A stretch of 64,000 nt of DNA, from contig JAKPNM010000053.1 in NCBI GenBank assembly GCA_029548395.1, positions 1 to 64,000 on the forward strand. The letters are read 5' to 3'. This DNA comes from Bacillota bacterium. GTDB lineage: Bacteria; Bacillota; Clostridia; Christensenellales; Aristaeellaceae. The notes under the pieces are model-generated. The model did not search any database, was not told the origin of the DNA, and saw only the letters and a program-made list of their open reading frames with translations. Position numbers and translations under genes: made by a program. Positions 8,296 through 32,007 of this stretch are shown here, piece after piece. Position 1 is the stretch's first letter. Every line of letters starts with the position of its first letter.

Positions 8296-9261
8296 CTATG
8301 AACTCTCCGGCGAAGCGCTTTTTTCTTTCATCGCCCGATTCCCCAGAATATAACTCCCCACACAGACCGCTGCCAGCACCCAAAACCCCCAGTTGCCAAA
8401 GATGCGCTGCCATGAATTTTGCATATCCAGCAACTCGGGAGGCCAAAAATGCGCGCTTTTGGACATCATCCATACGAAGCCTGTCGTTCCGATCAGGGAA
8501 AGAACGATGGTATATATCCCGTTTGCTTTTTCAGAGGTTATCTTTTTCATGTATTCCGGTATAAAAGTCATTAGCAGGTTGAACAGAATGTGATAGGCTG
8601 TACACAACAGCAGGCTGCCGCTGCTCACATACACCCAAGACCACAGAAAGCCGGTATGAAGCATACCCACTGCCACTGCGATCCGCCCGGTTTGAAGATG
8701 AAGCAAGGAAAACACTATAGCGGACATGCATAGGAAAAGCCCTGCCTGATCATTGCCCAGTATATCACCCAGCAGCTTTCTGCAAAGAAGCTCCTCCATC
8801 AAAGGAACCATGAGTATTAGCAAAACAGCATTAAGGCCTTGGCTTTTTTCTTTTTGTTGCTGCTCCCATGCCTGAGACGTGACCAGGCCCAACTTGATTT
8901 CAAGGATAGTAAACGGCACCATCAGCACAAAGGCAAAAAACTGCGCCATAAACACCACGATATAATCTGCCGTTCCAAAGCCCTGTGGAGAAACCTGGAA
9001 CACCGGCAGATCCTTAATGAACAGCAGCAGAAGCCCCAAACCGGGCAGATAAAGCAGGGCTGTGCTCACCAGGTATTTTTTATCTTTTGGCAGCCTGCCC
9101 TTTTCAAGAAGCGGCGAAACAATAAATCGATTGCACAGCCAATACAGGCTGAACATCGCGCCTACGCCAAGGGTATATCGTGTGATGGGTTCATGCCACA
9201 TATACTTTCTCCTTTCTGACAGCAGGTGACGATGCTTTGGATTTTGCATTCTCTTTGTCAT
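8296..9261 (-). CDS. CPBP (CAAX/Abi-type) intramembrane metalloprotease family protein
   Basis: Motifs EELLCRKLL, FSLLHLQ and HILFN within a polytopic membrane protein; alternative start at 9201. Confidence 0.8.
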   Translation of the reverse strand: MTKRMQNPKHRHLLSERRKYMWHEPITRYTLGVGAMFSLYWLCNRFIVSPLLEKGRLPKDKKYLVSTALLYLPGLGLLLLFIKDLPVFQVSPQGFGTADYIVVFMAQFFAFVLMVPFTILEIKLGLVTSQAWEQQQKEKSQGLNAVLLILMVPLMEELLCRKLLGDILGNDQAGLFLCMSAIVFSLLHLQTGRIAVAVGMLHTGFLWSWVYVSSGSLLLCTAYHILFNLLMTFIPEYMKKITSEKANGIYTIVLSLIGTTGFVWMMSKSAHFWPPELLDMQNSWQRIFGNWGFWVLAAVCVGSYILGNRAMKEKSASPESS

Positions 9262-9365
9262 CAGGTGCCGGAAGGTCAGCCGCTTCCCCTCTTTGCCCTG
9301 TTTGATGGGCAGTGTCGTGTATATCCTGACCGGTCATTCGTGAACGGCTCTTCCGTACCCGGTGA

Positions 9366-9431: not shown

Positions 9432-10451
9432 TTATTGCAGGCTTCCGCTGTTGACTACCGGTTGGGCGTCCCGGTTGCCGCACAGCACCACCAGAAGGTT
9501 GGAAACCATAGCGGCCTTGCGCTCCTCGTCCAGGGTGACAACTTTGTTTTTGGCAAGCTTTTCCAGCGCCATTTCCACCATGCCCACCGCTCCGTCGACA
9601 ATCAGCTTCCGGGCGTCCACAATGGCGCTTGCCTGCTGGCGCTGCAGCATGACAGCGGCAATCTCCGGCGCATAGGCCAGGTAGGTAATCCGGGCTTCCA
9701 GAATTTCAAGCCCGGCATCGTGTACCTTGCTTTGAATCTCATCCTTGATGCGCTGGGCTACCACCTCGCTGGAGCCGCGCAGGCTGCCCTCGTCCGGCTC
9801 GCCATCGCCTGTGGTATCCACATTGGGCGCCACATCATAAGGATAGATGCGCACAATGTTGCGCAAAGCGCTGTCACACTGCAGGGACAGATATTCCTTG
9901 TAATTGTCCACGTTGAAGACAGCCTTGGCAGTATCCACCACCCGCCAGATCACTGCAATGCCGATCTCCACCGGATTACCCAAGCAGTCGTTCACTTTCT
10001 GCCTGGCATTGTTCAGCGTCATGGCCTTGAGAGAAACCCGTTTGCCCAGGGATTCCACATCCACCTTGGCGCTGTCACTGGAGATGATGATGCCCGGCTT
10101 GCCTGTCTGCACATCGCCGCTTTGTCCCAGCTTGGTTTTGGCAGCGGGGTTCACAGCCACTGAAAAGGGATGAACAAAGTAAAAGCCTGCTTCCCGCAGC
10201 GTGCCGGTGTATTTGCCAAACAAAGTCATTACCAGGGCTTCGTTGGGCTTGAGCACTTTCAGGCCGATGAAAGGGATAAAGCCGACGATCATCCAAAGGG
10301 TGCCCAGCACCAGAGGAAGGGCGCCAATGTTCTTTTCCTTTTCCAGCAGGACGCCTCCCAGCACAACAAGCCCGATGGCCGCGAGGTACAGCACAACGGA
10401 CAAAAGCAGAACCGGCATGCCTGGTCTGGCTTTGAGCTCTTGTTCCTTCAT
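9432..10451 (-). CDS. SPFH/band-7 domain protein
   Basis: Two N-terminal TMs, LKPNEALVMTLFGKYTGTLREAGFYFVHPF, C-terminal EAAVMLQRQQASAIVDARKLIVDGAV-type segment. Confidence 0.9.
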   Translation of the reverse strand: MKEQELKARPGMPVLLLSVVLYLAAIGLVVLGGVLLEKEKNIGALPLVLGTLWMIVGFIPFIGLKVLKPNEALVMTLFGKYTGTLREAGFYFVHPFSVAVNPAAKTKLGQSGDVQTGKPGIIISSDSAKVDVESLGKRVSLKAMTLNNARQKVNDCLGNPVEIGIAVIWRVVDTAKAVFNVDNYKEYLSLQCDSALRNIVRIYPYDVAPNVDTTGDGEPDEGSLRGSSEVVAQRIKDEIQSKVHDAGLEILEARITYLAYAPEIAAVMLQRQQASAIVDARKLIVDGAVGMVEMALEKLAKNKVVTLDEERKAAMVSNLLVVLCGNRDAQPVVNSGSLQ

Positions 10452-10655
10452 ACGACAGGCCTCCTTCTTTTGTTTTTCCTTTGGTCCCTAATAAATAGAT
10501 ACCGAATTTAAATAGCGTTTAAGTATAAACCATGTAAAGTTCTGATAAAATTTATGTTATTTTTGGAGAAATCGAATGAATCCGGGCAAGCTTATTATTT
10601 ATAATAAACGATTTTTATGGGGGATTCTCATTGATGCATCCATGGAGAACAGCTG

Positions 10656-11843
10656 TCAACTTAGACTTAAAAGCCATTCAGTGTCAAATTCCGCGACTGA
10701 GATCCCGTTTTCGTAAGGATCCTGATCGTTGCCATTTTCGTATAGCAAGTAAAAGCGGCCATCCTTTTCATTATACGCAAGACTCGAATAGCCGGCGGCT
10801 GCCGCGTGGACAGTCTTCAGACCGGCCCATGTCATCCCTTCATCAAAGCTGTAGCAGATGGTCATGTTCCTGCGGTTCTCCGCACGCGGATTGGCAAAGA
10901 GCGTCAGGGAGGTGCAGCCCTTGGGGAGTGCCGTTCCCGCCGGCAGCCTGTCCTTATCCACTCGCAGGAAGGAAGCGTTGCAGCCAATATTCTTTTCTTC
11001 AATCAGGAAATCATCCGCTGTAAATTCACCGAAGGTTTCTCCGCCATCGCGGCTGACAGCCAGATAGCGCTTCTGGTCAAAAAAATAGGCACGGGAATTA
11101 TACAGGATCGTCCCGTCCGACCGTTCGATCAGTGTCCCCTCGCCAGTGCCGATCTGTACTGGTCCGCCGCATTTCCATGTCTGTCCGTGGTCATCGCTGT
11201 AGAGCGTATTGTTATAGGAATAATCCTTCAATTGATCGAAACTGGTATATTTCCCGATCGCATATCTGGAGGGACAAAGCAGCCTGCCGGCATGCGGGCC
11301 GCGGATCAGCTGGATTCCGGCGGAGGAACCATGTGTGCCGGAAACAGTCGTTTCGCGTTTTCCGGTATTCCTGTTAATGTATTCCAAGGGCTTGCCGGCG
11401 AAGGGGCGCTCGGTCCACGTCGCGCCGTTGTCTTTGGTTTCAAGGATAAACCTGCCCGGTTTGATCCCGTCCCGTTTGATGATTCGCCGGCGCTCCTCCT
11501 CCTTTTGCCGCCTTTCTTCTTCAGAATAATCCCCGAATTCATTTTCGCTTACACAGGATCGACTGAAAAAGCACATGAACGTATCGGTCATCTGGTCATA
11601 GACAACGCTTCCGATCACGAAAAACCAGCCTGGAATGCCTCTGGCGACTTTGCTCCCGGACCATTCCCGGCCAGGCGCTTTGACAGCATAAGCCAGATTA
11701 CATTCTTCACAGTCATCCCGTACCGTATCCAGCCGCTCATTACAGAAAGCGATAGCATAGCCATCCTTTGTGACGCCGATACTCGGAATGCGGAAATGGG
11801 AACGGCCGCCTGTTTTGAATACCTGTGTTTCTTGAAAAAACAT
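10656..11843 (-). CDS. Sialidase (BNR/Asp-box) family exo-alpha-sialidase
   Basis: FRIPSIG motif and four Asp-box-like repeats (TKDNGATW, SDDHGQTW, SRDGGETF, SFDEGMTW); no obvious signal peptide. Confidence 0.85.
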   Translation of the reverse strand: MFFQETQVFKTGGRSHFRIPSIGVTKDGYAIAFCNERLDTVRDDCEECNLAYAVKAPGREWSGSKVARGIPGWFFVIGSVVYDQMTDTFMCFFSRSCVSENEFGDYSEEERRQKEEERRRIIKRDGIKPGRFILETKDNGATWTERPFAGKPLEYINRNTGKRETTVSGTHGSSAGIQLIRGPHAGRLLCPSRYAIGKYTSFDQLKDYSYNNTLYSDDHGQTWKCGGPVQIGTGEGTLIERSDGTILYNSRAYFFDQKRYLAVSRDGGETFGEFTADDFLIEEKNIGCNASFLRVDKDRLPAGTALPKGCTSLTLFANPRAENRRNMTICYSFDEGMTWAGLKTVHAAAAGYSSLAYNEKDGRFYLLYENGNDQDPYENGISVAEFDTEWLLSLS

Positions 11844-12011
11844 ATCATTTCCATTTCTACAATTATTTGCCCGACTAATCCTCATATCTTGACAGAGCCG
11901 GTCAGGACGTCTTTGGCGAAGCGCTTCTGGCGACCGGATATACAAGCAGAAACGGCAATTCCGGTGCCTTTCAGCAGCCTTTCAGCACTTGCCTTTCAGC
12001 CTGGCCTGTGC

Positions 12012-12041
12012 TTGCAATTTTTCCACGCTTTGTGCTATACT
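12012..12041 (+). promoter_or_regulatory. rpsB operon promoter
   Basis: TTGCAA (12012-12017), 18 bp, TATACT (12036-12041). Confidence 0.55.
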
Positions 12042-12057
12042 GTCAAGGCATTACACA

Positions 12058-12112
12058 CGCGGGGTGACTGTGCGCTTGTGCCTAATGGCGGCCGCACAGG
12101 ATGAAGCCCGCG
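12058..12112 (+). promoter_or_regulatory. Structured rpsB leader hairpin
   Basis: CGCGGG(12058-12063)/CCCGCG(12107-12112) and CTGTGCG(12068-12074)/CGCACAG(12093-12099), internal loop GTGA/GATGAAG, apical GCC-TAAT-GGC. Confidence 0.65.
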
Positions 12113-12137
12113 GAGGCAACAACAAGGAGGAAGACCC

Positions 12138-12881
12138 ATGGCTATCATTTCTATGAAGAGCCTGCTGGAAGCAGGCGTCCACTTCGGACATCAGACCCGC
12201 CGGTGGAATCCCAAAATGGCGCCCTATATCTTCACGGAGCGCAACGGCATCTACATCATTGACCTGCAAAAGACCGTGCGCAAGATTGAAGAAGCCTATA
12301 TGTTCGTGCGCAACCTGTCCATGGAAGGCAAGAGCCTTTTGTTTGTCGGCACCAAGAAGCAGGCTCAGGAATCCATCGAGCAGGAAGCCAAGCGCTGCAA
12401 CATGTTTTATGTCAACCGACGCTGGCTGGGCGGCATGCTGACCAACTACCGCACCATACGTTCGCGCGTTGATCGTCTCAACGAGATTGATAAAATGGAA
12501 GCCACCGGCCAGTTTGAGCTGTTGCCCAAAAAGGAAGTGGCAAAACTGACCCACGAACGTGAAAAGCTTAACAACAACCTGGGCGGCATCCGTAGCATGA
12601 AAGGTTTGCCGGGCGCACTGTTTGTTGTGGATCCGCAGATGGAAGCCATTGCGGTCGCTGAGGCGCGCACGCTGGGCATTCCGGTTGTCGCCATTGTGGA
12701 CACCAACTGCGATCCGGATCTGGTTGACTATGTCATCCCCGGAAATGATGATGCCATCCGCGCCGTCAAGCTGATTTCCAGCAAAATGGCTGACGCTGTT
12801 CTGGAAGGCAAGCAGGGCGCTCAGGCGGAGAGTGATGCCGATGAAACTGGTGAGGATGACAGTGCGGAGATGGGCAACTGA
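12138..12881 (+). CDS. rpsB: 30S ribosomal protein S2
   Basis: [46 protein letters not shown]. Confidence 0.98.
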
Positions 12882-12914
12882 TTGCCGCTGCGCTGAAGAA
12901 TAAGGAGATTGACA

Positions 12915-13568
12915 ATGGAAATTACTGCTGCAATGGTAAAGGAACTGCGTGAGCGCACGCAGGCGGGCATGATGGACTGTAAGAATGCGCTGATTGAGTG
13001 CAAGGGCAATATGGACAAGGCCATCGAGTATCTCCGTGAGAAAGGGCTGGCCGCCAACGCCAAGAAGGCGGGCCGCATCGCCGCTGAAGGCCTGGTGGAC
13101 AGCTATATCCACATGGGCGGCAAGATTGGCGTGCTGCTGGAAGTCAACTGCGAGACCGACTTCGTCGCCAAAACCGACGCTTTCAAGGATTTGTGCCATG
13201 ATCTGACCCTGCAGATCGCGGCCAGCAATCCGCTGTACATCAGCAAGGCGGACGTCCCGGCAGAGGACCTCGAAAAAGAGCGGGAGATTCTGCGCGCGCA
13301 GGCCCTCAATGAAGGGAAGCCTGAAAAAATCGTTGAGCGCATGGTGGAAGGCCGGATAGAAAAATACTATAAGGAAGTCTGCCTGCTGGAGCAGCCTTTT
13401 GTGAAGAACCCCGATATTACAGTGCAAGCCCTGGTCAATGAGACTGCGCTGGCCAGCGGTGAGAAGATCTCCGTGCGCCGCTTCACCCGTTATGAGCGCG
13501 GCGAAGGCATCGAGAAGAAAGTCAGCGACCTGGCCGGTGAAATCGAAGCGATGACCGGCAAGGCCTGA
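12915..13568 (+). CDS. tsf: Elongation factor Ts
   Basis: [29 protein letters not shown]. Confidence 0.98.
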
Positions 13569-13594
13569 GCTATCGTCAGGATGATTATTCAATG

Positions 13595-13615
13595 GGGCGG
13601 CGCATTGCGCCGCCC
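13595..13615 (+). terminator. Strong hairpin between tsf and pyrH (attenuator or processing hairpin)
   Basis: GGGCGGCGC-ATT-GCGCCGCCC, 9-bp perfect stem; only a weak T tract (TGTTTC) follows. Confidence 0.5.
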
Positions 13616-13642
13616 TGTTTCAAAAAATACAGGAGGCTTGCC

Positions 13643-14350
13643 ATGATGTATAAGCGAATCCTGCTCAAGCTCTCCGGGGAAGCCCTGGGGGAGAAGGGGT
13701 GGTTGTTTGACCATGAAAAAATCCTGGAAGTGGCCGGCATTCTCAAGGAAATCAGGGACGGCGGCACCCAGGTCGGCGTGGTGATTGGCGCCGGCAACCT
13801 ATGGCGCGGGCGCCATGGCCTGTCCTCCGGCATGGATGCGGTGCGCGCGGACATGATGGGCATGCTGGGCACAGTGATGAACTGTGTCATGATGCAGGAT
13901 GCCATGGCGCAGCACGGCTGTCCGTCAAAGGTGTTCTCCGCCCTGTACATGCCGGATGTGTGCGATAAATACCGCCGCGATCTGGCGGATGAGGCGCTTG
14001 AGCGCGATGGCGTGGCTTTTTTCGGCGGCGGGCTGGGCAATCCCTTTTTTACCACAGATACCGCCGTGGTGCTGCGCGCGGTAGAGCTGGGGGCCGATGC
14101 GCTGTTGTTGGCCAAGAACATTGATGGCGTCTACACGGCCGACCCCAACAAAGATGAAACAGCCGAGCTGATCCCGGTCATTACCTACCGAGAAGCCTAT
14201 CAAAGGGGGCTGAAGGTCATGGATTTGGCGGCCTTTACGATCTGTGCGGATCAGGGTCTGCCCGTGGTAAGGGTCTTTGGCCTGGATGACCCGCGCAATA
14301 TCCTGCGGGTGATTGCCGGGGAAAACCTGGGCACCATTTTGCACCCCTGA
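13643..14350 (+). CDS. pyrH: UMP kinase
   Basis: YKRILLKLSGEALGEKG; GAGNLWRGR; NIDGVYTADP. Confidence 0.97.
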   Translation: MMYKRILLKLSGEALGEKGWLFDHEKILEVAGILKEIRDGGTQVGVVIGAGNLWRGRHGLSSGMDAVRADMMGMLGTVMNCVMMQDAMAQHGCPSKVFSALYMPDVCDKYRRDLADEALERDGVAFFGGGLGNPFFTTDTAVVLRAVELGADALLLAKNIDGVYTADPNKDETAELIPVITYREAYQRGLKVMDLAAFTICADQGLPVVRVFGLDDPRNILRVIAGENLGTILHP

Positions 14351-17151: not shown

Positions 17152-17694
17152 TTAACTTCGGCGCATAAAACGATAGCTTTTGGGGCCTACGCGGATAATA
17201 TCACGGTGGTTGAGGGGGACAGGGACTGTATTGGGCAGGAAGTGCCCATTGTGAAACGTGCCGTTGCGGCTGCCCAGATCCTTCAGATAATATCGCTGGT
17301 CTTGCCTGCGGAAAAAAATCTGGCAGTGATGCTTGGTTACCATTCGGAAATTGACGCGCAGGTCGTTGTTCGCTTCCCGTCCCAGGGTGAACGGCGAATG
17401 ATTGATGTCCGCAATTACGCGCTGGGTGTCGCAGTCCACCAGACAATACCGGACCGCCGTGGCGCCGGTTTTACTTTTGGTGTCGATCAGATCGTCCAAG
17501 GATACCTTGCGCCCTTTTGTTGAAGAGAACTTATCCGGCATCAGGTAGTACATCAACGCAGTCAACAGGACCAACAGACACAACAACACCAGGCTCAGGG
17601 TGAAATCCAGCACCGCGATAACAGCCAGAAGAACAAGCACAAATATCAGCACAGCAGCACATATCTTGCTTTTGGCAGGTGTGTTGCTTCGCAT
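17152..17694 (-). CDS. Membrane-anchored FHA domain protein
   Basis: Two N-terminal TMs, then FHA core LGREANNDLRVNFRMVTKHHCQIFF...LKDLGSRNGTFHNG. Confidence 0.9.
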   Translation of the reverse strand: MRSNTPAKSKICAAVLIFVLVLLAVIAVLDFTLSLVLLCLLVLLTALMYYLMPDKFSSTKGRKVSLDDLIDTKSKTGATAVRYCLVDCDTQRVIADINHSPFTLGREANNDLRVNFRMVTKHHCQIFFRRQDQRYYLKDLGSRNGTFHNGHFLPNTVPVPLNHRDIIRVGPKSYRFMRRS

Positions 17695-18125
17695 TGTGTC
17701 CTCCTTGTGAAAACTTCCCTCTTAGTGTACAAAAGCTCCTGTGAATTGGCAAGCCTGCAGGTGCTGTATGCCCAATGCCGCACACTGCCGTATGGCAGGC
17801 TTTGTTTTCACAAGGGAAAACCGCCGAAAAACCAGCGTTTCCATTGACAAATCCATTATACATTTGTAGAATCATGTTGCGTCAAGACAGGTATGCATGA
17901 TGCAAATGCACTATGGCTGTCTTTACCTCACAGGCTGTCAGGCTGCGCTTTACGTTGATATGTGAAGCTGCGCCTGACAGGAATTTCTATGGTCAAAGCA
18001 GCGGAGCAACAGGTCACTGCTTTGTCTTTCTGTATTTCATTACTCGCTGGCTTGATGTTCTCCTGTGTCTGACAAACATCCGGGTTTTTGCCCGGGGCTG
18101 TGCACGAAAAGATTTGAGGTGTCGA

Positions 18126-20483
18126 ATGAAGTATCTGCAACGCGCCACTGCCTGTGTGCTTGTAATGCTCATGCTCGCAGCGGTCGTCTTGCCTGTGCTG
18201 GCAAGTTCTATCACGTTTTTGAGGGTTATCAAGCTCGAACAGGTCAAGGAAGGCCATGTGCTGCGGATGGGGATCAAGGCTTCGGACGATGCCGGCCGTG
18301 GACAGCGCCAGGCAGGCGGTCAGATTTCTGTGTCGGTCAACGATGTGCCAGTGCATCTGGTTGATATCACCGGTTCTGAAATTGGACATTTATTACTTAT
18401 TGACACCACCACGCCTTCCCATTCCCAGAGTTGGAGCTATGATGTGATCCGGGCAATGGCCCAGGCTTTTGTCAATGCGATTCCCTTGGATGAGCGTGTG
18501 ATGATTATCACCTTTGATGATAAAGGCGCCTATGATCAGGGCTGGCAAAGCCCGCAGGAAGCACTGTCTTTCATCAGCTCCATCCAGCCCTCCTCACAAA
18601 CCCGGGCGCGATTGTATACAGCGCTAAAACGGGCTCATATCCTGATCCGGGAGCCCAGTAAAGGCGATGACCCTGCTTTTATCAGTTCTATTTTCACTGT
18701 GACCGATGGTTCACCCTCCCTTAGCAGTTACCAGGACATGGGCAGCCTGATTTCTGACAGGAGTTATATCAATTTTGTTATTGCCCGCCCCTATTCCAGC
18801 GTAGTTGTCAACAGCAACTCAAACGCGGGCAAAGCGTTTATCAACAATCAGGCTTTGCTGCAAAGCATCGCCTCACAGCAAAACGGCAAACTGATTGATT
18901 GCGAAACGCCCAGGAACGGGATGCCCGACATAAATGGCCTGTACCGCGAAGTGTACGACATGCTCAATGCGGATTTGTATTACGAGTTTAGTCTTGATCC
19001 CCTGATCGGCAAGGTTCAATACAAAGCGGATGACCTGGTCATGGTAAACATCCAGGCGGGAAATGTCAGTGTAAAGGTGCCCATCGAAGTGGACACCTTG
19101 TCCCTGCCCACGCCCACGCCTACGCCCACGCCTATACCTACGCCTACGCCTACACCTACGCCCACGCCCGCTCCCGAGGCAACTGCAACCAAGCCTGCAG
19201 AGAAAATGACACCCACACCCACCCCGACCCCTTCGCCGGAGCCCTTGATGGTCGAATATGGCAAGGCCAGTTCCAATGCGCGTCAGGCGCGGTATTTCCT
19301 GCATCTTTATAATTATATGGAGGATCACTACACCGAAACCGAGGTGTTTGACAAAGCCGCCCAGCAAGCCTTTGATGAGTTTGCCATAAGAAACGGGCTG
19401 GATACGACGGATGGCATCTATGCCGGTGCTTTTGCGATACTGACAGATCCCTCCAAGATCCCGGTCACCTATCCTCCGCCCAGCCCCACGCCCAGCCCGA
19501 CGCCGACGCCTACCCCGGAACCTACCCCAAGCCCTGAGCCGACACCCCGGGCCATCTATCTCAATGAGGAAGATCCGATTGATGGCAAGGACCTGATTTT
19601 GCCTATGCAGATGAAATTGGAATCGCTGGGCTACTATGCGGCAATCAATGAGACATTTTCTCCCAAAAAGCTTGATCAGGCTACGCTGAACGCCTTGGCT
19701 CTGTTCGCGCAGACCAAAGGAATTGCAAACGAAGCGCCCAATGGCGTCAGCGTTGGGCTGCAGGAAGTGCTCCTGAAAGGTTCCTACGAGCCGTTTACGC
19801 CTTCGCCAAGCCCCAAGCCGCCGGGATTTGTAGATAACCTTCGCGCCAGGATGAGCCAAACACTCAGCATCGGCAGTTTGAAAGTTCCCTTTTGGACGAT
19901 CATCGCGCTGGTCGGCTTGTTGTTGCTGGGAGTAATCATCCTGATTATTCTGCTTCGCAGCGGTCATCAAACCTCTTCGGTCTCCGGCGCGGGCATTCCT
20001 CTTGATCCCTTGGGACAGGGAGACGGTCAAACCAAGGAGGAAGGGACTAAAAAGACAGCTGTCATAACAGGCGAATGGCGTAGGACTGGCAGTAAGACTG
20101 TTGCCATGGACAATTTAGGACTCGCGGTTAATTTCCATATTCAGTTTATGGGCCGCAGTGAAACCACCCATGACTTTGTGTCCCAGCGCTTCACGATTGG
20201 ACGGGAGAACTGCACTTTACTTCTGGATGCCAGGGACATGAGTGTTTCCAAAGAGCATGCCGAATTGAACTATCATGATAACCAGCTGGTTATCATAGAT
20301 TCGAACAGCACCAATGGTACTTTTGTCAATGGTATGCGCGTGCCCAGTATCAAGGATGGCATGATGCCCGTCGGTGGAGATATGAACAAGACACTTGAAT
20401 TGAAAGGCGATGTCTTTGGCCGCGTGATCAACAACGGCGACATCCTCAAAATAGGGATGCATCAGATCACGATTACCTGGTAA
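18126..20483 (+). CDS. Secreted VWA domain + TP-rich linkers + TM + cytosolic FHA domain protein
   Basis: Signal peptide MKYLQRATACVLVMLMLAAVVLPVLA; VWA-like LLLIDTTTPSHSQSW...TVTDGSPS; TM FWTIIALVGLLLLGVIILIILL; C-terminal FHA FTIGRENCTLLLDARDMSVSKEHAELNY...DSNSTNGTFVNG. Start taken at ATG 18126, not the ORF-track 17913. Confidence 0.85.
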   Translation: MKYLQRATACVLVMLMLAAVVLPVLASSITFLRVIKLEQVKEGHVLRMGIKASDDAGRGQRQAGGQISVSVNDVPVHLVDITGSEIGHLLLIDTTTPSHSQSWSYDVIRAMAQAFVNAIPLDERVMIITFDDKGAYDQGWQSPQEALSFISSIQPSSQTRARLYTALKRAHILIREPSKGDDPAFISSIFTVTDGSPSLSSYQDMGSLISDRSYINFVIARPYSSVVVNSNSNAGKAFINNQALLQSIASQQNGKLIDCETPRNGMPDINGLYREVYDMLNADLYYEFSLDPLIGKVQYKADDLVMVNIQAGNVSVKVPIEVDTLSLPTPTPTPTPIPTPTPTPTPTPAPEATATKPAEKMTPTPTPTPSPEPLMVEYGKASSNARQARYFLHLYNYMEDHYTETEVFDKAAQQAFDEFAIRNGLDTTDGIYAGAFAILTDPSKIPVTYPPPSPTPSPTPTPTPEPTPSPEPTPRAIYLNEEDPIDGKDLILPMQMKLESLGYYAAINETFSPKKLDQATLNALALFAQTKGIANEAPNGVSVGLQEVLLKGSYEPFTPSPSPKPPGFVDNLRARMSQTLSIGSLKVPFWTIIALVGLLLLGVIILIILLRSGHQTSSVSGAGIPLDPLGQGDGQTKEEGTKKTAVITGEWRRTGSKTVAMDNLGLAVNFHIQFMGRSETTHDFVSQRFTIGRENCTLLLDARDMSVSKEHAELNYHDNQLVIIDSNSTNGTFVNGMRVPSIKDGMMPVGGDMNKTLELKGDVFGRVINNGDILKIGMHQITITW
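19107..19166 (+). repeat. Hexanucleotide microsatellite (CCYACR)x10 encoding the PTPTPT linker
   Basis: Ten consecutive 6-bp units CCCACG/CCTACG/CCTATA/CCTACA; a second TP-rich tract is at about 19480-19550. Confidence 0.9.
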
Positions 20484-20492
20484 GGAAAGCTG

Positions 20493-21662
20493 ATGAATCA
20501 ACCAAACGGCTCTGCCCGCGCGGTATCCCGGCAGGTGCCGGCGGGCAGGTGCCTGGCCTGCATGAAGACGTTGACGCCGGCCGACATCCGGGAATGCAGC
20601 GCTTGCCACAGCACGCTGCCCTATGTGAGCAAAGACAGCACTTTGCTGGAGCCTGGCGCTGTGCTGAAGGGGCGCTATCAGATTGGCCGTCCCTTGGGCA
20701 GCGGCGGTTTTGGCAACACCTATCTGGCGTTTGATTTGGCAAGCCATTCTGTGTGCGCCGTGAAAGAATATTTTTTGCGCGGGGCTGCCGTCAGGGACAG
20801 GAAAAGCAGCCTGGTGCTGGTTGAGCAGGGCAGGGAACACGCGTTTAAACGTTTTCGCGACAGTTTCATAAAAGAGGCCCAACAGCTTAGCCAATTGGGC
20901 GCCATACCTGGTATGGTCAGGGTCTTTGATGTGTTCCAGCAAAACAATACAGCGTATTTTGCGATGAGCTATGTTCAGGGACAGACGCTCAGGAATTGGT
21001 TGCTGGAACAGAAAGCCCCCCAGGCATTGAATGACGTCTTGGCAATGGTCAATGAATTGCTGGATATTCTTGGTCGGGTGCATGCCCGGGGCATCCTGCA
21101 CCGTGATGTCAGCATGGACAACATCATCCGCGGATCAAACGGAGAGCTGACCCTGATCGATTTTGGCGCCGCGCGCCAGGCCGGCAAACCGGAAATGACG
21201 GTCTACCACAAGGGCGTTTATACTGCGCCGGAGCAAAAGCTGGGTGTCACGCAAGGCCCGTATACGGATATCTACGCAGTAGGGGTTATCATGTTTGCCC
21301 TGCTCCATGGCCGCTTGCCCCATGAGGATCAAAACCGCCTTGAGCCATTGCCGGGTTTGCCGCAGGACATTCAGGCGCAGTTGGACCGTATTTTCCGAAA
21401 GGCCACCCATCCAAGGACTTCCGCCCGTTATCAGCAAACAGCGCAGATGCGCGCAGAACTGCAACAGGTTGCCTTGCGTGCTGACGGTTATCGGCTGTCT
21501 CTTTCAAGGCCCCGGCGCCCCCTGCGAGGGATGCTCCGTACCCCAAAAGGCAGCCGGGAGATTAGGCTGAAGATTTTGCTGGCTGTGTTTTTGTTTTTTT
21601 TATTGCTTCTTTTGCTTGCCATTGTCTTAGGTGATGCGGGTTTTCAAGGTGTAACGGATTGA
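20493..21662 (+). CDS. Zinc-ribbon Ser/Thr protein kinase with C-terminal TM
   Basis: CxxC...CxxC N-terminus; P-loop GSGGFGNTYLAFD; HRDVSMDN; DFGAAR; APEQ; C-terminal TM. Confidence 0.93.
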   Translation: MNQPNGSARAVSRQVPAGRCLACMKTLTPADIRECSACHSTLPYVSKDSTLLEPGAVLKGRYQIGRPLGSGGFGNTYLAFDLASHSVCAVKEYFLRGAAVRDRKSSLVLVEQGREHAFKRFRDSFIKEAQQLSQLGAIPGMVRVFDVFQQNNTAYFAMSYVQGQTLRNWLLEQKAPQALNDVLAMVNELLDILGRVHARGILHRDVSMDNIIRGSNGELTLIDFGAARQAGKPEMTVYHKGVYTAPEQKLGVTQGPYTDIYAVGVIMFALLHGRLPHEDQNRLEPLPGLPQDIQAQLDRIFRKATHPRTSARYQQTAQMRAELQQVALRADGYRLSLSRPRRPLRGMLRTPKGSREIRLKILLAVFLFFLLLLLLAIVLGDAGFQGVTD

Positions 21663-21692
21663 TGTGCTAATGTATTCGATGGGAGATAGCAG

Positions 21693-24600
21693 ATGGTAAA
21701 ACCGGGAGACGTGCTGTGTTATTCCTGCATGAGGGAAGTAGTCGCGGGCAAGAGCTGCCCCTTGTGCGGTGCGCCCATACCATATGAGGCGCGGGATGTA
21801 TTGGACCTAAAACCCGGCACAGTGCTCAACGGCAAGTATACGATCGGCCGCTGCCTTGGCAGGGGCGGCTTTGGCGCGACTTACCTGGCTATGGAAAGCA
21901 GCCTGGGCGGGCGCTTTGCGATCAAGGAGTATTTTTATCAGGCTTGCTGCACCCGCGCGGTAGATTCCAATGAGATTGTTGTCAAACCGGGCATGGAGGA
22001 GGATTTCCGCCGTTTCAAGGAGAAATTCCACCAGGAAGCGCGCAGGCTGCAGGAGTTCCAGCATTCCCCGGGGGTGGTGAAATGTCTGGAGTACTTTGAG
22101 GAAAACGGCACCGCTTATTTTGTAATGGAATATCTTGAGGGTGTCACCCTGATGGACTTTATGAGAAAACGCGGCACCACTCTGACAGCGGATGAGCTTA
22201 TTCCCATTCTTCTGCGGGCGCTCAAGGCGCTGGAACAGGTACACGCCAAGGGCTATATCCACCGTGACATTTCTCCGGACAACCTCTTTTTGCTTCAGGG
22301 CGGAGAGATCAAATTGATAGACTTCGGCTCGGCCAGGCAGACCAGCGCGCGGTCCATGACCCGCCTGGCTAAGGGCAGCTATACCGCGCCTGAGCAGGAG
22401 TTTAACCGCGAGCAAACCCCGGCTACCGATTTATATGCCCTGGGCGTCAGTATTTTCACGCTGCTGGTCGGTAGGCAACCGGAGAAGCAGCCTTTAACAG
22501 GAAGCGGAAGCCGCTATAAGCTGGAGCCTCTGCCGGCAGACACCCCTCCTTCCCTGCAATCAATTTATACCAAGGCAACAGCCTTTGACGCCAAGAGCCG
22601 CTACCGGACCGCGCCGGAGATGGCCGCCGCGATAAACCTGGCTTTCCCCGGCTTTATCCCGACTACCGGCAGCTATACAACTTTCTCACCGTCCCCAAAG
22701 CGTCAGATCGGGCGCATTATCGGGCTTGTGAGCATCCTGCTGGCGCTTGCTGCCGTGGTTCTCATCCTCCTGAATCAGCCGTCAGCGCTTACTAGCGAAG
22801 TTACCATCCGCTACTACAACCAGCAAGGGAATTTGCTTAATACAGTCAATCAAAGCTTTTCAAAAGGCACCTACACCATTACCGCGGATGATGATATGGT
22901 ACCGCCGGGGCATCTGCTTACAAGTGAGCGTGAACAATTCCTTCGGGTCAATGAGGATGGCTCCGTATCTCCTGGAAACATTGATTTTATCTACATGCAA
23001 ACTGCGCAGTCTGCTGCGGGCAGCGTGACCTACGATCTGTTGCCGGATCAGGATGGCGGGCTGTTCATTATTATTAACGGCGGCGCTTCCGTCTCCATTC
23101 AGATGACGCCCCATGAGCTGGTGCGCGCGAATCTGGTAACTGAAAAACATTTGGCTTACCCGCTGTATTTGATCCACCGGGAATCCGGCAACCGTTTTCA
23201 GGTTGTTGACAGCCTGGACGGTTCCACAGCCGTTGGTCTGCAGCCGGGGATATATGATGCAGCATTAGATTTGTCCGGGAATGATCTTCTTTCGAAAGCC
23301 CCCCTGGAAATCCGTGCAGGGCAAAGCGATTATCAGCTGTTTTTTGATGATGACATCCTGGCGTTTTTCAACGACTACGGGGCTTTGCCCCTGCCCGCTG
23401 ACCAGGCGCTGGTGGATTATGGCGCCGGTCCTTACAGCACAGACAAGTTGGAAAAGGTACGCCTGACCGTGTTTGCTGAGCAGGCGCAGCCTAATGACCT
23501 GCGCCGCTTGATGTATCATGTGAACTTGCATATGGATGTGCCTCAAGGGTTGAGCGACAGATTTGAGTTGATTCCAAACGGTCAAGACAGAGGCATATCC
23601 TTCAGTCAGGAAAGCGCTGCATCCCTGCGCATGACATCAGGCACTTACGAAGTCAGGATGTATATTGGCGCAGCGGAATTTGAAAGCCTTGAACAAATCA
23701 CAGTTAAAGCCGATAAAGTTCAGCAGAATCTGTCAGTCAGCTTCAACCTGGACGACGCGATGAGCTTAGCAAAGACTGCCGCGTATAAAATAGCGGACAA
23801 CGACGTGACGAAATTCATTGGCCAGCAGTTAGGCAATGCAACCGGCTTGACGCTTTCCAAGGTCAGCCTCAAAACCAACCTGATCAATCTGTATGGTATC
23901 AATGACGATGACGTTGTCTTTCGTTTGCGCCTTCAAAACGACGACAACCTGCTCAGCGACCCTTTGCCGGTTAAAAGCCTTGGCACCACTGTTCATCTGA
24001 GCCCCGGATCGTACACGCTTCAGGCGGAGATGAACAACCAGACCCTTATATCCGAGCCTTTTTACGTTGCTTACAACAATGATGTAAGCCAAACTTTGAA
24101 TTTTGACACCTCTGTGCTGACGCGGTGGACACCCCCGCCTGAAGGCTCGGTCGTTTTTGCCTACGACCTGGATCACGATGAGCGCAATGGTTCCATGATG
24201 GTTGTTGTTGGCAAGGACGCCGAACTGATTATGAACAATCCGGTGGCCCTGTACCCGGTCGCCCTTAGTCTGGATTTGCCGCCTTATATGGTAGAAAATA
24301 AGCAGTTCACCCTTGAGCACCATGAAAGCGGGATGACGCTGAATGCGCCTTACTATGGCGTTGAGCCTCATCAAATGCGTTTGATGGCCGGCAGCTATAC
24401 ACTGAGCATCACCAACAAGGATACGCCGTTTGAAGCGGAGCAACCTTTTCTTGTTGATGGTAATACTGAACAAATAACAATCTTATTTGATCAAAACGCT
24501 ATTGTGTTTTATCAAGAAAATGGCTTGTTGCCCCTGAAGCCGGATGCCATGGTGCTCAGGGCACGAGGCGCTACCCTGCTGGGCAGGACAGGACAGAAGC

Positions 24601-27407
24601 CGCTTGAGGTGGATGCCCGTCTCGCGGCTGGTCATGAGGCGTTCAATGCCGGGCAGATCCCTTTGTACCCGGTGACCATTCGGGTGGATTTGCCACGTGA
24701 ATATGACAATGCCGTCAGCCTGACCCTGGCGGATAACCCGGACATTGCTATTCCGCTTGCTTTGCGCCCCGGGCCAGTAGAAATGCAGGTGTCAGCCGGC
24801 TCTTACCGGCTCAGTTATTCCGTCAATGGTGTGCCTGTGTACTCCCCGGTGTTTGCCTTCGGTCCAAACGCCGCTGCCGATTATCATTGGCAGCTGGACG
24901 ATGCGATGGCGGATGAATACCAGCGGTTCGGTTATTTCACCGCGCAGCGTGGCGCGGACAAGGAATCCTATCAGAAACTGGGGTCTGAAAAATATCATTG
25001 GCCTCAATTATGTCTGGCTTTGCCCATGTATGAAACTCCCATCAGCACCAACATGGATCGAATAACGGGCTTTCACCATGCGTTAATCACGGGTCTTGAA
25101 ATCGTCAATACCCTGACAGGCAAGGCTTATAATGTCCTGCCTCTTCTGGACAGCGGCATGAGCCTCAGTGGCTTGCAGGTAAGCAAAGGCTGCTATCTGT
25201 TGAGGCTGCACACCAAAGGCGGCCAGGTAGACAGCAGTGAAACCTTTGCTGTGGACGGGAAAAAGGATGCGTCATACAGCGTGAGTTTCAACCAACAGGC
25301 TGTGCTGAGCTTGCTTCCGGCGCCATTGCCTGAGGGTAGTTTTGTGATCGGACGTGAAGGTAAAGACAGGATTGAGGTCATGCTCATCAAGGATGGCCAG
25401 GAGATCCCGGCGCAGGCTCCCGTGCAGCTTTGGCCGGTTGAAATCACCACCAACCTGGGCAAGAAGCATCAGGAAATGATCCTCAGGCATACCCAGTCCG
25501 GTCAAACCACCAGCTTGGCTCTGAAGGACGGCAAAGCGCATATCTTGGCGTCAGCGGGCACCTATGTGCTGGAAGCCCTGGTGTCCGGCATACGGCTGAC
25601 TCCACAGGGCCTGCCAAATTTTGTCATTGCAGACAAGAAAGTGTCTTTGGATGTAAAATTCGGTTTGTTGTCCGGTGTCACCTATCCCAATGGCCAGCCA
25701 TCAGGCGATGTGACGGCAGGAGACCGGATTGTTGCTGCCCTGGATTTTGGCAGCAATGCGCCTGCTTCCGTCCAAACCATGTCCTCGGACAGCAAGATTG
25801 TCAGCATAGAACAAGATCATAGCAATCTGTCCAGAGTAGTGATCCGTGTGTTGCGAAAGGGTACCGCGACGGTCACCATTACTGATGGGATCAGCCGGTA
25901 TTCTCTGGACTTGAAAGTCAAGGCATATGAGTTTGCGGCGGCTAAGGAGCAATTTGCGCTGTATGCCGGCGGCAGTGTCAAGGCCGGATTTCTGGATAAG
26001 GACGGCGTTTCGCTCTCCGGGTCTTACCTGGAGGCAAACGATGTCAAGGGGCTGAAAGTCAGCGCGGGAGAGAACGGCCTGGTGATTTCCTCCGTAGTGC
26101 CTGGCACCTATGATTTGCCGGTTACATGTCTGAATACTACCATCACGGTCAAGGTTCAGGTCTATGACGATATAAAGGGCAGCCCCATACCGCCGGCAAG
26201 CATGTCTGTAAACGAAGTTGTCATGATGGATTTGCCAACTTACTCCGGGACGCTCAACAAGCTGGAGATTCCTGCTGATTCCGGAGGTGTTATCAAGGTA
26301 GAAAAGGATGCGGACAACCCGCAGCAGCTGCGCTTGCATGCCCTGAAAACCGGCACGGCAGAGCTGGTGTTGACTTTGGACGGGCGCGTAAGAACGCTGG
26401 GCACCATAGAGGTAATCAGGTTAAACACAGCGCATATCAAAAACGGCGTAGGTTTTTTCGGCACATATTTCTTTCTTGATGAGTACGGTCAGACACTCCT
26501 TTTTAAGCGCGGAAGTGATCGGGCCTATAACGTACTTGAACCGAAATTCATCAAACTCCTTGCCAATGACACCGTGGTGGTCGGGCTGACTGAAGAAGGC
26601 GAATTGTATGCCTACGGCAACAAGATAAACCTGGACAGGTGGTTTGACAGGGTAAGTAGAGGCCGTGTGACCTTGAACTATATGGACATCAAAATCAAGG
26701 ATTTTTCTTTGACCGATTCCAGCCTTGTATATATCCTGAAAGAGAACGGAATCATGCAATCCGATGGCAGGCGGCAATTTGTGAAAGCGGGCGGATTATG
26801 GATGCATTTCCCACGCACTGCGGAAGACGCCCCGCTGCGGCCATTGCAAGTGTCCCACGATCCAGTTGTTCCCGGCACGCTGGAGCTGCAGCCAAGCAAT
26901 TCCCGGTCCCATAACTTTCTCGCGGTTCCCGAGGGATCTCAGGATGGCTTGAATCAAGTATTTACGATCGGCCATGATTCCCGGTACGCACGCGTCAATC
27001 CGCAGATCAATGCCGGCAACGCAACCCTGAACCCTGTTCGTGTATGGGCTGCGCAGGATGCGCTGTTCATCCTGACCGCGGAAGGCCGGCTGTATTCCCG
27101 CGAAACCAACCAAAAGGACTACAGGCTCGTCAGGAATAATGCTGATTTTAATTCTTTTAATCTTGTCCATGTCCTGCCCATGAACAACCATACTTATTTC
27201 CTGGACAATCAGAACAGACTCTATCTTTCCGGCAAAACTTCAGACAGCCTCTATAAGCAGATTACGCTGGTGGCGCAAGAGGTTGCCTGGATGCAGCAGG
27301 TTTCATCCGAGGATGTGATGCTGTTCCACACGGATGGCTCAATCAGCCTGTACCAGAACGGTGTGGCCGTTTCTGAGGTATCGCGCTTAAAAATCAAGTA
27401 TCCATAG
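21693..27407 (+). CDS. 1904-aa zinc-ribbon receptor Ser/Thr kinase with repetitive ectodomain and RCC1-like C-terminus
   Basis: CYSCMREVVAGKSCPLC; GRGGFGATYLAME; HRDISPDN; DFGSAR; single TM at about 22715-22775; ~1540-aa extracellular region with repeated Ig-like modules; RCC1-like segments such as VVGLTEEGELYAYGN. Confidence 0.9.
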   Translation: MVKPGDVLCYSCMREVVAGKSCPLCGAPIPYEARDVLDLKPGTVLNGKYTIGRCLGRGGFGATYLAMESSLGGRFAIKEYFYQACCTRAVDSNEIVVKPGMEEDFRRFKEKFHQEARRLQEFQHSPGVVKCLEYFEENGTAYFVMEYLEGVTLMDFMRKRGTTLTADELIPILLRALKALEQVHAKGYIHRDISPDNLFLLQGGEIKLIDFGSARQTSARSMTRLAKGSYTAPEQEFNREQTPATDLYALGVSIFTLLVGRQPEKQPLTGSGSRYKLEPLPADTPPSLQSIYTKATAFDAKSRYRTAPEMAAAINLAFPGFIPTTGSYTTFSPSPKRQIGRIIGLVSILLALAAVVLILLNQPSALTSEVTIRYYNQQGNLLNTVNQSFSKGTYTITADDDMVPPGHLLTSEREQFLRVNEDGSVSPGNIDFIYMQTAQSAAGSVTYDLLPDQDGGLFIIINGGASVSIQMTPHELVRANLVTEKHLAYPLYLIHRESGNRFQVVDSLDGSTAVGLQPGIYDAALDLSGNDLLSKAPLEIRAGQSDYQLFFDDDILAFFNDYGALPLPADQALVDYGAGPYSTDKLEKVRLTVFAEQAQPNDLRRLMYHVNLHMDVPQGLSDRFELIPNGQDRGISFSQESAASLRMTSGTYEVRMYIGAAEFESLEQITVKADKVQQNLSVSFNLDDAMSLAKTAAYKIADNDVTKFIGQQLGNATGLTLSKVSLKTNLINLYGINDDDVVFRLRLQNDDNLLSDPLPVKSLGTTVHLSPGSYTLQAEMNNQTLISEPFYVAYNNDVSQTLNFDTSVLTRWTPPPEGSVVFAYDLDHDERNGSMMVVVGKDAELIMNNPVALYPVALSLDLPPYMVENKQFTLEHHESGMTLNAPYYGVEPHQMRLMAGSYTLSITNKDTPFEAEQPFLVDGNTEQITILFDQNAIVFYQENGLLPLKPDAMVLRARGATLLGRTGQKPLEVDARLAAGHEAFNAGQIPLYPVTIRVDLPREYDNAVSLTLADNPDIAIPLALRPGPVEMQVSAGSYRLSYSVNGVPVYSPVFAFGPNAAADYHWQLDDAMADEYQRFGYFTAQRGADKESYQKLGSEKYHWPQLCLALPMYETPISTNMDRITGFHHALITGLEIVNTLTGKAYNVLPLLDSGMSLSGLQVSKGCYLLRLHTKGGQVDSSETFAVDGKKDASYSVSFNQQAVLSLLPAPLPEGSFVIGREGKDRIEVMLIKDGQEIPAQAPVQLWPVEITTNLGKKHQEMILRHTQSGQTTSLALKDGKAHILASAGTYVLEALVSGIRLTPQGLPNFVIADKKVSLDVKFGLLSGVTYPNGQPSGDVTAGDRIVAALDFGSNAPASVQTMSSDSKIVSIEQDHSNLSRVVIRVLRKGTATVTITDGISRYSLDLKVKAYEFAAAKEQFALYAGGSVKAGFLDKDGVSLSGSYLEANDVKGLKVSAGENGLVISSVVPGTYDLPVTCLNTTITVKVQVYDDIKGSPIPPASMSVNEVVMMDLPTYSGTLNKLEIPADSGGVIKVEKDADNPQQLRLHALKTGTAELVLTLDGRVRTLGTIEVIRLNTAHIKNGVGFFGTYFFLDEYGQTLLFKRGSDRAYNVLEPKFIKLLANDTVVVGLTEEGELYAYGNKINLDRWFDRVSRGRVTLNYMDIKIKDFSLTDSSLVYILKENGIMQSDGRRQFVKAGGLWMHFPRTAEDAPLRPLQVSHDPVVPGTLELQPSNSRSHNFLAVPEGSQDGLNQVFTIGHDSRYARVNPQINAGNATLNPVRVWAAQDALFILTAEGRLYSRETNQKDYRLVRNNADFNSFNLVHVLPMNNHTYFLDNQNRLYLSGKTSDSLYKQITLVAQEVAWMQQVSSEDVMLFHTDGSISLYQNGVAVSEVSRLKIKYP

Positions 27408-27534
27408 CGCTCACGCCAAGCCCGGACAACTGTTTTTGATGTATAATAAGCAAGCGCTGGATGGATGATGGAGCTGTTTTCCCTGGCGAGATCATGGTGA
27501 ACTGTCAATCTGTCGAAGAATCGAGGAGAAGATC

Positions 27535-28422
27535 ATGAAGAAACTGTTGGCGTTGTTGTTGATTACCACGCTTGTGATGCCCCTTTCAAACGGTCTGGCA
27601 GCCGGCAAGAGAGAGCCAAAGCTGATCCTGTTGCCCATGCAGGTAGGAGAGGTCAGCCAGGCGATCCAGGGGGAAGGAACCTGGCGCAGCGAGCATCCGG
27701 ACATCGCAGCCGTATCGGATCAAGGGGTCATTACCGCGCTGGCGGAGGGCTACACCCTGGTGCTGCTCAGCAACAAGAAAAACGAGGTGACTGTCCGGTG
27801 TGAGGTCCAGGTTGGTGAAAAGCCGGTGCCGGAGGAAATCACCCGTGTGATTGAATCAGCCCTGGCCGACTGGGCTGCGGCGGATGGAAAGCCTCTGCCC
27901 CGCTATAATGAATATACCAAATGGTTCAATCCGGCCGCCAAGGACGGCTTTGGCTGGTGCGGCGCCTTTGTCGGCCTGCATTTTGACAAGGCCGGCATTG
28001 AGATGAACAAGGAGTATCGCGCCAAGAATGCCCCGCCGCTTGCGGACGGCTCCCTGTTCGCGGTACGCCAGGCCTCCCAGACCAAGCTCTACGAAGGCTT
28101 TCAGAGCCGCAACCGCCTCAGCAACCTGCCTCGCCCGGGCTATTACATTATCTATGGCAAAAAGGGCAGCACGCCCTACACCCATGTCGGCCTGATTACT
28201 GCGGTAAAGGACATGGGGGAGGGCGTCTACCTGCTGGAGACCGTGGAGGGCAACCTGAATTCGCGCATCAAACGCTACAGCTACCTCTATGACAGCCTGG
28301 CTGAGCGCAAGGACCGTAACATCAGGCCCATCCCGGCTGAAATGCAAACCCGGCCGGATGAGTTCAACTATGAGTATGTCAAGGATTTTTATATCAATGT
28401 CTTTGGGCAGACCTGGTATTGA
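27535..28422 (+). CDS. Secreted protein with Big-like N-terminal module and CHAP-like cysteine peptidase/amidase domain
   Basis: Signal peptide; TWRSEHPDIAAVSDQGVITALAEGYTLVLL; GWCGAFVGLHF...YTHVGLITAV. Confidence 0.75.
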   Translation: MKKLLALLLITTLVMPLSNGLAAGKREPKLILLPMQVGEVSQAIQGEGTWRSEHPDIAAVSDQGVITALAEGYTLVLLSNKKNEVTVRCEVQVGEKPVPEEITRVIESALADWAAADGKPLPRYNEYTKWFNPAAKDGFGWCGAFVGLHFDKAGIEMNKEYRAKNAPPLADGSLFAVRQASQTKLYEGFQSRNRLSNLPRPGYYIIYGKKGSTPYTHVGLITAVKDMGEGVYLLETVEGNLNSRIKRYSYLYDSLAERKDRNIRPIPAEMQTRPDEFNYEYVKDFYINVFGQTWY

Positions 28423-28471: not shown

Positions 28472-28505
28472 AAAGAGCGGACGCCGAGAACGGCACCCGC
28501 TCTTT
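28472..28505. terminator. Bidirectional terminator between convergent genes
   Basis: AAAGAGCGG ... CCGCTCTTT with inner GCCG/CGGC. Confidence 0.75.
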
Positions 28506-30774: not shown

Positions 30775-32007
30775 CCCCGGATTGAAAAATCAAGTGCAAC
30801 ACGTCGCAACACTGGAAGAGAGCTTTGCTGAGTTGATTATATCGCTCAATTTCTTCTCGAACAACTCCTCAGGCGTCTTGTAACCGAAGCGTTTGCGCGG
30901 CAGTTGGTTAATGTATCGATTGATTCGAACCAAGATGTTCGGAGCTAAGTCAGTCAGGTTCATGCCTTTGGGAAGGAACCGGCGAACAATACCATTCCAA
31001 TTCTCCGAGGTTCCCCGTTCATAACTGCTGTAGGGATGTGCATAGTAGGCCGTTATGCCGCCTTTGTTTTCAATTTCCTCTGCTGATGAGAACTCAGGGC
31101 CATTGTCAAAGGTGATGCTTTTGAATACCCCGGAGAACAGTTCTCCGTATTCCCGCCTCAACTCAAGAAGAAAAGTCACAACCTTGTCCGCTCCCCGGTC
31201 TTTGGCGTCCCAGACAATGCCATAGCTGATGCTGCGCTCCACCAAAGTCAGCAAATGTCCTTTCTGACCTTTGCCGATGATGCCGTCGCATTCCCAATGC
31301 GCAAATTCGTTCCGCTGATTGATACAATCCGGTCGTTCATCTATGCTTCGTCCCAGAATTCGCTTCCTGACCCGCGCGCGTTTCTTCCCTTTCAAGCGCA
31401 CTTTGAGCAGCAGGTCGATGTTCCGAATCCTCAAGAAGCCGGCGTCAACCCAGTTGTAGACGGTCTTTGTGCTGGGGATTACCGGAAACATCTGATGCCG
31501 CTTTGCGTAGCCGACAACCGCGTCAATGGACCACTTCTCAGGCCCGAGCACCTTCCGCTCCAGGAACTGCACAAAATCCGCACATTGCGCCAGCTTGCAT
31601 TTCGCGCCTGTATTCATCCGACGTTCCTGGTATAAGCGTTGCGCGGAATCATGATAATAGCGCTGCACAGTTCTGTACAGGGGAACATTGATGGACTTGC
31701 TATAGGTCTGCACGTTTTCCCGCTGCTCCACCATGTTTCGCTTTAGTTCACGGCCAATGGTGCTCCAGTGACGGCAGAGTATTCTCCCAATCTCTGTATT
31801 GCTTAATCCTTGGCGTTTGAGTCGTTCAATACATTTTCGTTCTGATTCCTGGATGTGATGATACTTCTTTGTCCTTGTGCTATACTCGACTTGGCTCATG
31901 GTGCGCCTCCACGTGTTGTTTTCTGCAAAAACTATCATACCGTGTTTGCGCAACATGAGCTGTTCCTATCTTCTCATGTCTGTTGCACTTCGTATTTCAA
32001 TCCGGGG
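30775..32007 (-). mobile_element. IS30-family insertion sequence, apparently complete (1233 bp)
   Basis: 27-bp terminal inverted repeats CCCCGGATTGAAAAATCAAGTGCAACA / CCCCGGATTGAAATACGAAGTGCAACA (24/27 identical), intact transposase, flanking direct repeats. Confidence 0.92.
30790..31899 (-). CDS. IS30-family transposase
   Basis: HTH (YHHIQESERKCIERLKRQGLSNTEIGRIL), DDE residues in HWECD, FDNGPEF, ERGTSEN; ORF may start at 31956. Confidence 0.95.
   Translation of the reverse strand: MSQVEYSTRTKKYHHIQESERKCIERLKRQGLSNTEIGRILCRHWSTIGRELKRNMVEQRENVQTYSKSINVPLYRTVQRYYHDSAQRLYQERRMNTGAKCKLAQCADFVQFLERKVLGPEKWSIDAVVGYAKRHQMFPVIPSTKTVYNWVDAGFLRIRNIDLLLKVRLKGKKRARVRKRILGRSIDERPDCINQRNEFAHWECDGIIGKGQKGHLLTLVERSISYGIVWDAKDRGADKVVTFLLELRREYGELFSGVFKSITFDNGPEFSSAEEIENKGGITAYYAHPYSSYERGTSENWNGIVRRFLPKGMNLTDLAPNILVRINRYINQLPRKRFGYKTPEELFEKKLSDIINSAKLSSSVATCCT

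Follow-up and report, generated by a model that had tools for sequence, protein, structure and literature searches.

What kind of protein is encoded by a very long ORF that appears to join a kinase, across the membrane, to an extracellular region ending in RCC1-like sequence, and does it represent a new kind of signalling system? The ORF is located in a 64,000-nucleotide stretch of DNA (the window), which lies on contig 63 of a 68% complete genome bin (MAG) from a gut-type Clostridia bacterium. It encodes 1904 residues and is the longest frame collected, the next being 1386 residues long. The modular organization of the protein is as follows.

21693-27407, + strand: predicted giant zinc-ribbon receptor kinase, 1904 aa, a single ORF that begins with ATG and is uninterrupted by stops
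21717-21767, + strand: zinc ribbon CxxC-x9-CxxC (aa 9-25), its Cys residues almost invariant among 10 members of the family
21816-22646, + strand: Hanks-type Ser/Thr kinase domain (~aa 42-318), PF00069 E 2.4e-34, with invariant columns
22710-22775, + strand: single TM helix (aa 340-361), from hydropathy and flanking charge, N-terminus predicted inside
22788-23012, + strand: juxtamembrane module (aa 366-440), related to the repeated modules of L032:5393-7783
23013-25667, + strand: seven tandem, putative beta-sandwich modules of ~130 aa (aa 441-1325), from module profile, shuffles and model
25668-26417, + strand: Big-like or beta-rich spacer (aa 1326-1575), from homology to part of L031
26418-27404, + strand: divergent RCC1-like domain (aa 1576-1904), seven blade-like motifs, from profile evidence

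The ATG of the ORF is preceded by GGGAGA, a ribosome-binding-like site. The first-pass annotation of this DNA had described an N-terminal cytosolic kinase with HRDISPDN and DFG motifs, one TM segment at about 22715-22775 and ~1540 extracellular residues, and each of these points was borne out. The catalytic motifs are all intact (G-loop GRGGFG, Lys78, Glu115, HRDISPDN, DFG and APE), and the protein is, by its motifs, a catalytically complete Hanks kinase. The TM segment is clear and single, as evidenced by a Kyte-Doolittle value of 3.2, against 1.35 for the next-best segment. Because Lys and Arg residues are located on the kinase side of the helix, the N-terminus is predicted to be inside and the C-terminus outside. 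The 1543 residues downstream of the helix, predicted to form the ectodomain, contain three Cys residues and no further TM segment. These sequence features support the prediction of a single-pass receptor kinase. Missing from the first-pass annotation were the cytosolic zinc ribbon (C9, C12, C22 and C25), a tandem sister kinase (20493-21662) and the seven-fold repetition of modules in the ectodomain.

The CxxC..CxxC ribbon directly precedes a kinase domain matching profile A2, and the kinase is followed by the TM helix. This order places the protein in the zinc-ribbon TM kinase family, which is defined here by profile A2. In an order-wide search, the zinc-ribbon kinase profile matched at least 50 of 396 genomes at E≤1e-55, a count that is a lower bound, as five candidates per genome were scored; nearly all family matches reached E<1e-80 with the kinase-core profile. 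The family extends to Bacilli, Desulfosporosinus, Acidobacteria, Azospirillum and Coriobacteriia; members from Clostridia and other groups include L112:14019-16103, L037, L033 and L106. Within the genus, 11 species of which were compared, full zinc-ribbon kinases are found only in the window species.

Ectodomains vary extensively within the family. The 103 scanned in one set include PASTA (18), LRR_5 (11), SBP_bac_8 (6), DUF5050 (4), C-type lectin (3) and Big_2 (3) domains, and further zinc-ribbon kinases carry TPR, DUF6273 or RCC1 domains outside. These bacterial receptor kinases, a widespread family that has received little description, take their outer sensors, RCC1-like domains included, from a wide repertoire. 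We read the giant kinase as a receptor in part because its relatives fill the same slot with known sensors (PASTA, LRR, solute-binding, DUF5050 and lectin).

Kinases with an extracellular propeller are already known, and the giant kinase is not unique in this respect. In M. tuberculosis PknD, a kinase is connected through a TM segment to an extracellular beta-propeller (PMC1262709; PMC2877116), which is of the six-bladed NHL type (PMC2877116). Like PknD, the giant kinase features an N-terminal cytosolic Hanks kinase, a single TM segment and a predicted extracellular propeller-like sensor; unlike PknD, it has a seven-module stalk, an RCC1-like domain and a zinc ribbon before the kinase. Topology and kinase fold are shared with PASTA kinases (PrkC/Stk1/IreK), but the giant kinase has no PASTA repeat, and its classification as a PASTA kinase (Stk1/PrkC) was rejected (NF033483, 142 bits against a cut-off of 450). 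It had been called unusual compared with PASTA kinases. This is correct for its size and its seven-module stalk, and not for the kinase-TM-RCC1 organization, as the family is widespread and the L112 kinase carries a canonical RCC1 domain. The giant kinase is an oversized member of a widespread modular kinase family, not a new kind of system, and what stays unusual is its size and its seven-module stalk.

The genetic context of the kinase suggests what the receptor may do. The relevant features of the window are listed below.

17152-17694, - strand: short FHA protein of 180 aa with a TM anchor, encoded divergently to the kinase operon, FHA E 6.5e-19
17844-17872, + strand: promoter-like TTGACA-N17-TAGAAT upstream of the operon, 11/12 consensus matches, from consensus only
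18129-20483, + strand: membrane protein with signal peptide, degenerate VWA-like region, Pro-rich linkers, TM segment and cytosolic FHA domain, FHA E 6e-14
20493-21662, + strand: tandem sister zinc-ribbon kinase, one TM segment, almost no ectodomain, kinase-tree support 98/81
27535-28422, + strand: candidate secreted CHAP-type peptidoglycan hydrolase with a Big-like N-domain, CHAP E 2.2e-5, Big_2 E 0.0017
28472-28505, no strand assigned: bidirectional terminator-like hairpin at the operon end, 15-pair stem
42498-43202, + strand: housekeeping PP2C phosphatase (Stp), possible eraser, NF033484 above cut-off
43199-44833, + strand: the genome's own canonical PASTA kinase, NF033483 499 bits, cut-off 450

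Four co-directional genes (18129-28422), separated by gaps of 9, 30 and 127 nt, lie between the promoter-like and the terminator-like sites. The region of the 18129-20483 protein called VWA-like matches VWA at E 0.1 only, below cut-off, when scanned from the upstream start at 17913. The CHAP match of 27535-28422 (25.3 bits) is just under the Pfam cut-off of 26. FHA genes are found near zinc-ribbon kinases in 46 of 80 loci and PP2C genes in 55 of 80, against 0/50 control loci, a comparison that is indicative only, the controls being shorter. PP2C adjacency is a feature of the relatives' loci and not of the giant-kinase operon. In relatives, trypsin-like protease-TM-FHA proteins encoded beside zinc-ribbon kinases (L034:6642-7916 and L106:1509-2879) take the place of the VWA-like/FHA protein of the window. 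An IS30-like transposase gene (30790-31956, - strand; HTH_38 and a weak rve) is located shortly downstream of the operon, beyond thrS. The hypothesis of an anti-phage kinase system (PD-T4-6, MADS) was rejected, as only generic kinase matches were obtained and padloc gave no match in the other operon proteins.

The explanation that we favour, with a confidence slightly better than even, is that of a zinc-ribbon receptor kinase with a wall-spanning stalk presenting an RCC1-like propeller, an FHA read-out and a CHAP wall output. It builds on the domain order, the integrity of the motifs, the operon, the relationship to RCC1 and the module repeat; ligand sensing, a dimer mechanism, the read-out and the output are what we infer. 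The seven beta-sandwich modules, along with Big-like spacers, would form a long stalk crossing the Gram-positive wall, and the divergent RCC1-like propeller would be displayed at the surface of the wall or further out. A ligand bound by the propeller, or tension on it, could alter how receptors pair through their one TM helix, and the changed pairing would promote trans-autophosphorylation of the giant kinase and perhaps of its sister kinase. The FHA domains of the two membrane proteins (18129-20483 and 17152-17694) would then recognize the phosphothreonines, and a PP2C, for instance 42498-43202, would remove them. The FHA read-out is proposed because FHA and PP2C genes widely neighbour the family. 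The co-operonic CHAP hydrolase may link the pathway to wall remodelling, its likely output.

Alternatively, the giant kinase may be part of a type VII secretion system (T7SS) or regulate it, as TscD/TsdD/TseD do, its stalk and propeller contacting the wall-side channel or targets. We regard this as unlikely, though some data point to it. Components of T7SS variants include TM kinases, PPM phosphatases and proteins of the vWA and FHA types (PMC11217815); EssB/YukC combines a pseudokinase with a TM segment (PMC11217815; PMC12599244); and a kinase gene was not found in T7SSf (PMC11217815). A cytosolic kinase or kinase-like domain, a TM segment, an outer domain and FHA, vWA and PP2C partners are common to the giant kinase and to TscD/TsdD/TseD and EssB/YukC (PMC11217815). 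Moreover, a 1091-residue protein encoded on contig 115 of the same genome (L207:5122-8397) is composed of a zinc ribbon, a degenerate kinase domain reduced to its N-lobe, a TM segment and the ecto-modules of the giant kinase (A6 profile, E 1.1e-5; 24.2 bits, the highest of 500 shuffles reaching 2.3). Its gene directly precedes a PP2C gene (8480-9364), which is followed by an FtsK/EssC-type ATPase gene (10198-13998). WXG100 proteins (genes in L210) and putative effectors are encoded at this half-kinase T7SS locus as well, and L207:5122-8397 is a candidate for its EssB-like component. The stalk common to the giant kinase and to this half kinase offers a candidate, open to testing, for the kinase-like membrane component that is missing from some clostridial T7SS.

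Unlike genes for T7SS kinases, the giant-kinase operon has no FtsK ATPase gene that could be found nearby. No EssC-like gene was detected in the window using the genome's own EssC, nor in 80 loci of zinc-ribbon kinases (flanks of up to 6 kb), nor at the remaining half-kinase loci, for which longer flanks were taken if the contig permitted. With no EssC-like ORF near it, the giant kinase does not classify as a T7SS kinase component (TsxD). More speculatively, the genus may pair two zinc-ribbon proteins having the same stalk, an RCC1-like receptor kinase and an N-lobe EssB-like T7SS component, and surface sensing by the kinase might license T7SS firing via shared stalk contacts and FHA/PP2C phospho-signalling; we hold this to be improbable.

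Half kinases form a conserved class in which a zinc ribbon precedes an N-lobe that stops close to the hinge and has lost the G-loop and the beta3 Lys, and a TM segment follows. Members are L097:1685-5044, L098:4560-8408, L100:4244-6889, L101:3747-6071, L105:4147-6141 and L031:3-1028. PG_binding_1 repeats are found outside in L097, L098, L100, L101 and L105, which come from five other genomes.

The stalk of the proposed receptor kinase had been described as consisting of Ig-like modules, a view supported by the seven-fold repeat profile and by an all-beta model. Modules feature the pattern 'LYPV..L..DL ... G(S/T)Y.L ... F.V', and the module profile places seven copies end to end in aa 441-1325. 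Each module scored above all 200 shuffles against the profile of the remaining six. The AlphaFold model of one module, obtained with the seven modules as alignment, has a mean pLDDT of 72, rising to 93 in the conserved half. A Foldseek search with this model gave no significant match (best E 0.012), the weak matches including SpaC, CnaB2 and transthyretin. An Ig-like/CnaB-like beta-sandwich is a reasonable interpretation of the modelled fold. In a profile search, the ~130-aa modules were found elsewhere only in two proteins of the same genus. The juxtamembrane module is related (33% identity over query residues 368-459, E 5.2e-11) to L032:5393-7783, a signal-peptide/SH3-like protein from a different species of the genus, in which the module is repeated. 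No Pfam family with an Ig fold was found in the spacer sequence of the window (aa 1326-1575); its Big-like label is mainly due to the homologue L031, whose corresponding region weakly matches Big_2 and T2SS-T3SS_pil_N.

Such a very long modular stalk would also suit a protein that is mainly a surface adhesin or a wall anchor, with the kinase as a secondary reporter of attachment, and the pilus adhesin SpaC and CnaB domains are among the weak Foldseek matches of the module. We consider this quite unlikely, since those matches are not significant, every kinase motif is kept and the operon is of a signalling type with FHA proteins; moreover, no sortase or wall-binding signal was noticed in the giant kinase.

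In the favoured receptor kinase, the sensor would be the C-terminal domain. Four RCC1-like segments had been noticed earlier in the last ~320 residues. All are present and, with TYFFLDEYGQTLLFK (residue 1591), SLVYILKENGIMQSDG (1677) and NFLAVPEGSQDGLNQVFTIG (1741), they make up seven blade-like motifs. These are also kept in the same-genus homologue L031 (genome G008), an open frame of 894 aa that ends at the contig edge and is 22-24% identical to the giant kinase over aa 1212-1519 and 1576-1904. The C-terminus of L031 matches the RCC1-like model WD40_RLD at E 6.6e-9 and retains the canonical RCC1 blade NGSSQLGNG (...YVRGDNGSSQLGNG). The window C-terminus matches RCC1_2 at E 2.7e-4, its 21.1 bits being under the curated Pfam cut-off of 22, and WD40_RLD with 18.3 bits, under the cut-off of 150. 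Scored against an RCC1 profile, it reached 14.6 bits and beat 1000/1000 shuffles (best 5.4), and L031 reached 40.1 bits (best shuffle 4.6); the similarity of aa 1576-1904 to RCC1 is above chance.

A joint profile of the window and L031 sequences retrieved RCC1 proteins among 8333 ORFs. The comparison with RCC1 that had been suggested supports the relationship, as hhalign aligned the joint profile to that of 26 clostridial RCC1 proteins with a probability of 95% (E 2.6e-8), against 0.3% in a control in which a wider C-terminal profile was compared with the kinase profile. In the PDB, the joint profile gave 14 matches at E≤1 (best 1.5e-5), and RCC1-family chains (HERC2, RCC1, SRM1, RCC2, RPGR and HERC1) account for 13 of them. 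The RCC1 part of the proposed RCC1-like beta-propeller is supported, and a closed propeller may form; the AlphaFold model of aa 1571-1904, built from the single sequence with no alignment, had a mean pLDDT of 36 and was not used. Closure, like the number of blades, would follow from the motif count. Since the window copy has lost most of the Gly/Asn positions that are conserved in RCC1, the domain may be a worn relative of the RCC1 fold. That the C-terminus is another beta-propeller (e.g., PQQ/BamB or DUF5050-like) with a convergent likeness to RCC1 is very unlikely: the eroded signature, the presence of BamB among the 14 weak PDB matches and the DUF5050 domains of relatives would fit, but the other 13 matches and the WD40_RLD hit and canonical blade of L031 argue against it.

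A second kinase-TM-RCC1 protein, L112:14019-16103, is encoded in genome G628, which belongs to another family of the same order (RCC1_2 E 8.6e-35). It is the only RCC1-profile match among the 189 kinase-bearing frames collected, and one of five clustered zinc-ribbon kinases. The two proteins share zinc ribbon, kinase core, TM segment and exchangeable ectodomain, but the RCC1 ectodomain of L112, unlike that of the giant kinase, is canonical. In a tree of 44 kinase domains, the giant kinase groups with the adjacent 20493-21662 (support 98/81), on a long branch separate from the L112 kinase, which pairs with its own neighbour. Because each kinase pairs with its own neighbour, the two fusions are apparently independent gains, although the long branches of the window kinases call for caution; the order has probably seen two or more origins of the kinase-TM-RCC1 organization. 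Kinase and RCC1 domains are also joined in one chain in NEK8 and NEK9, which are eukaryotic fusions with no TM segment between the two domains; there is no evidence for common descent with the giant kinase.

Scanning contigs with the alignment of the RCC1 part revealed no relative. Among 300 genomes of the bacterial family, the ectodomain of the giant kinase is found only in the window and in G008, and RCC1 proteins are present in 147. The RCC1 frames of ~620-660 aa found in this family were considered as kinase fusions and rejected, those checked being secreted or multi-TM proteins with no kinase. Recurrent proteins of this size, in which an RCC1-like domain is followed by several TM segments, are encoded at L075, L076, L077, L078 and L090.
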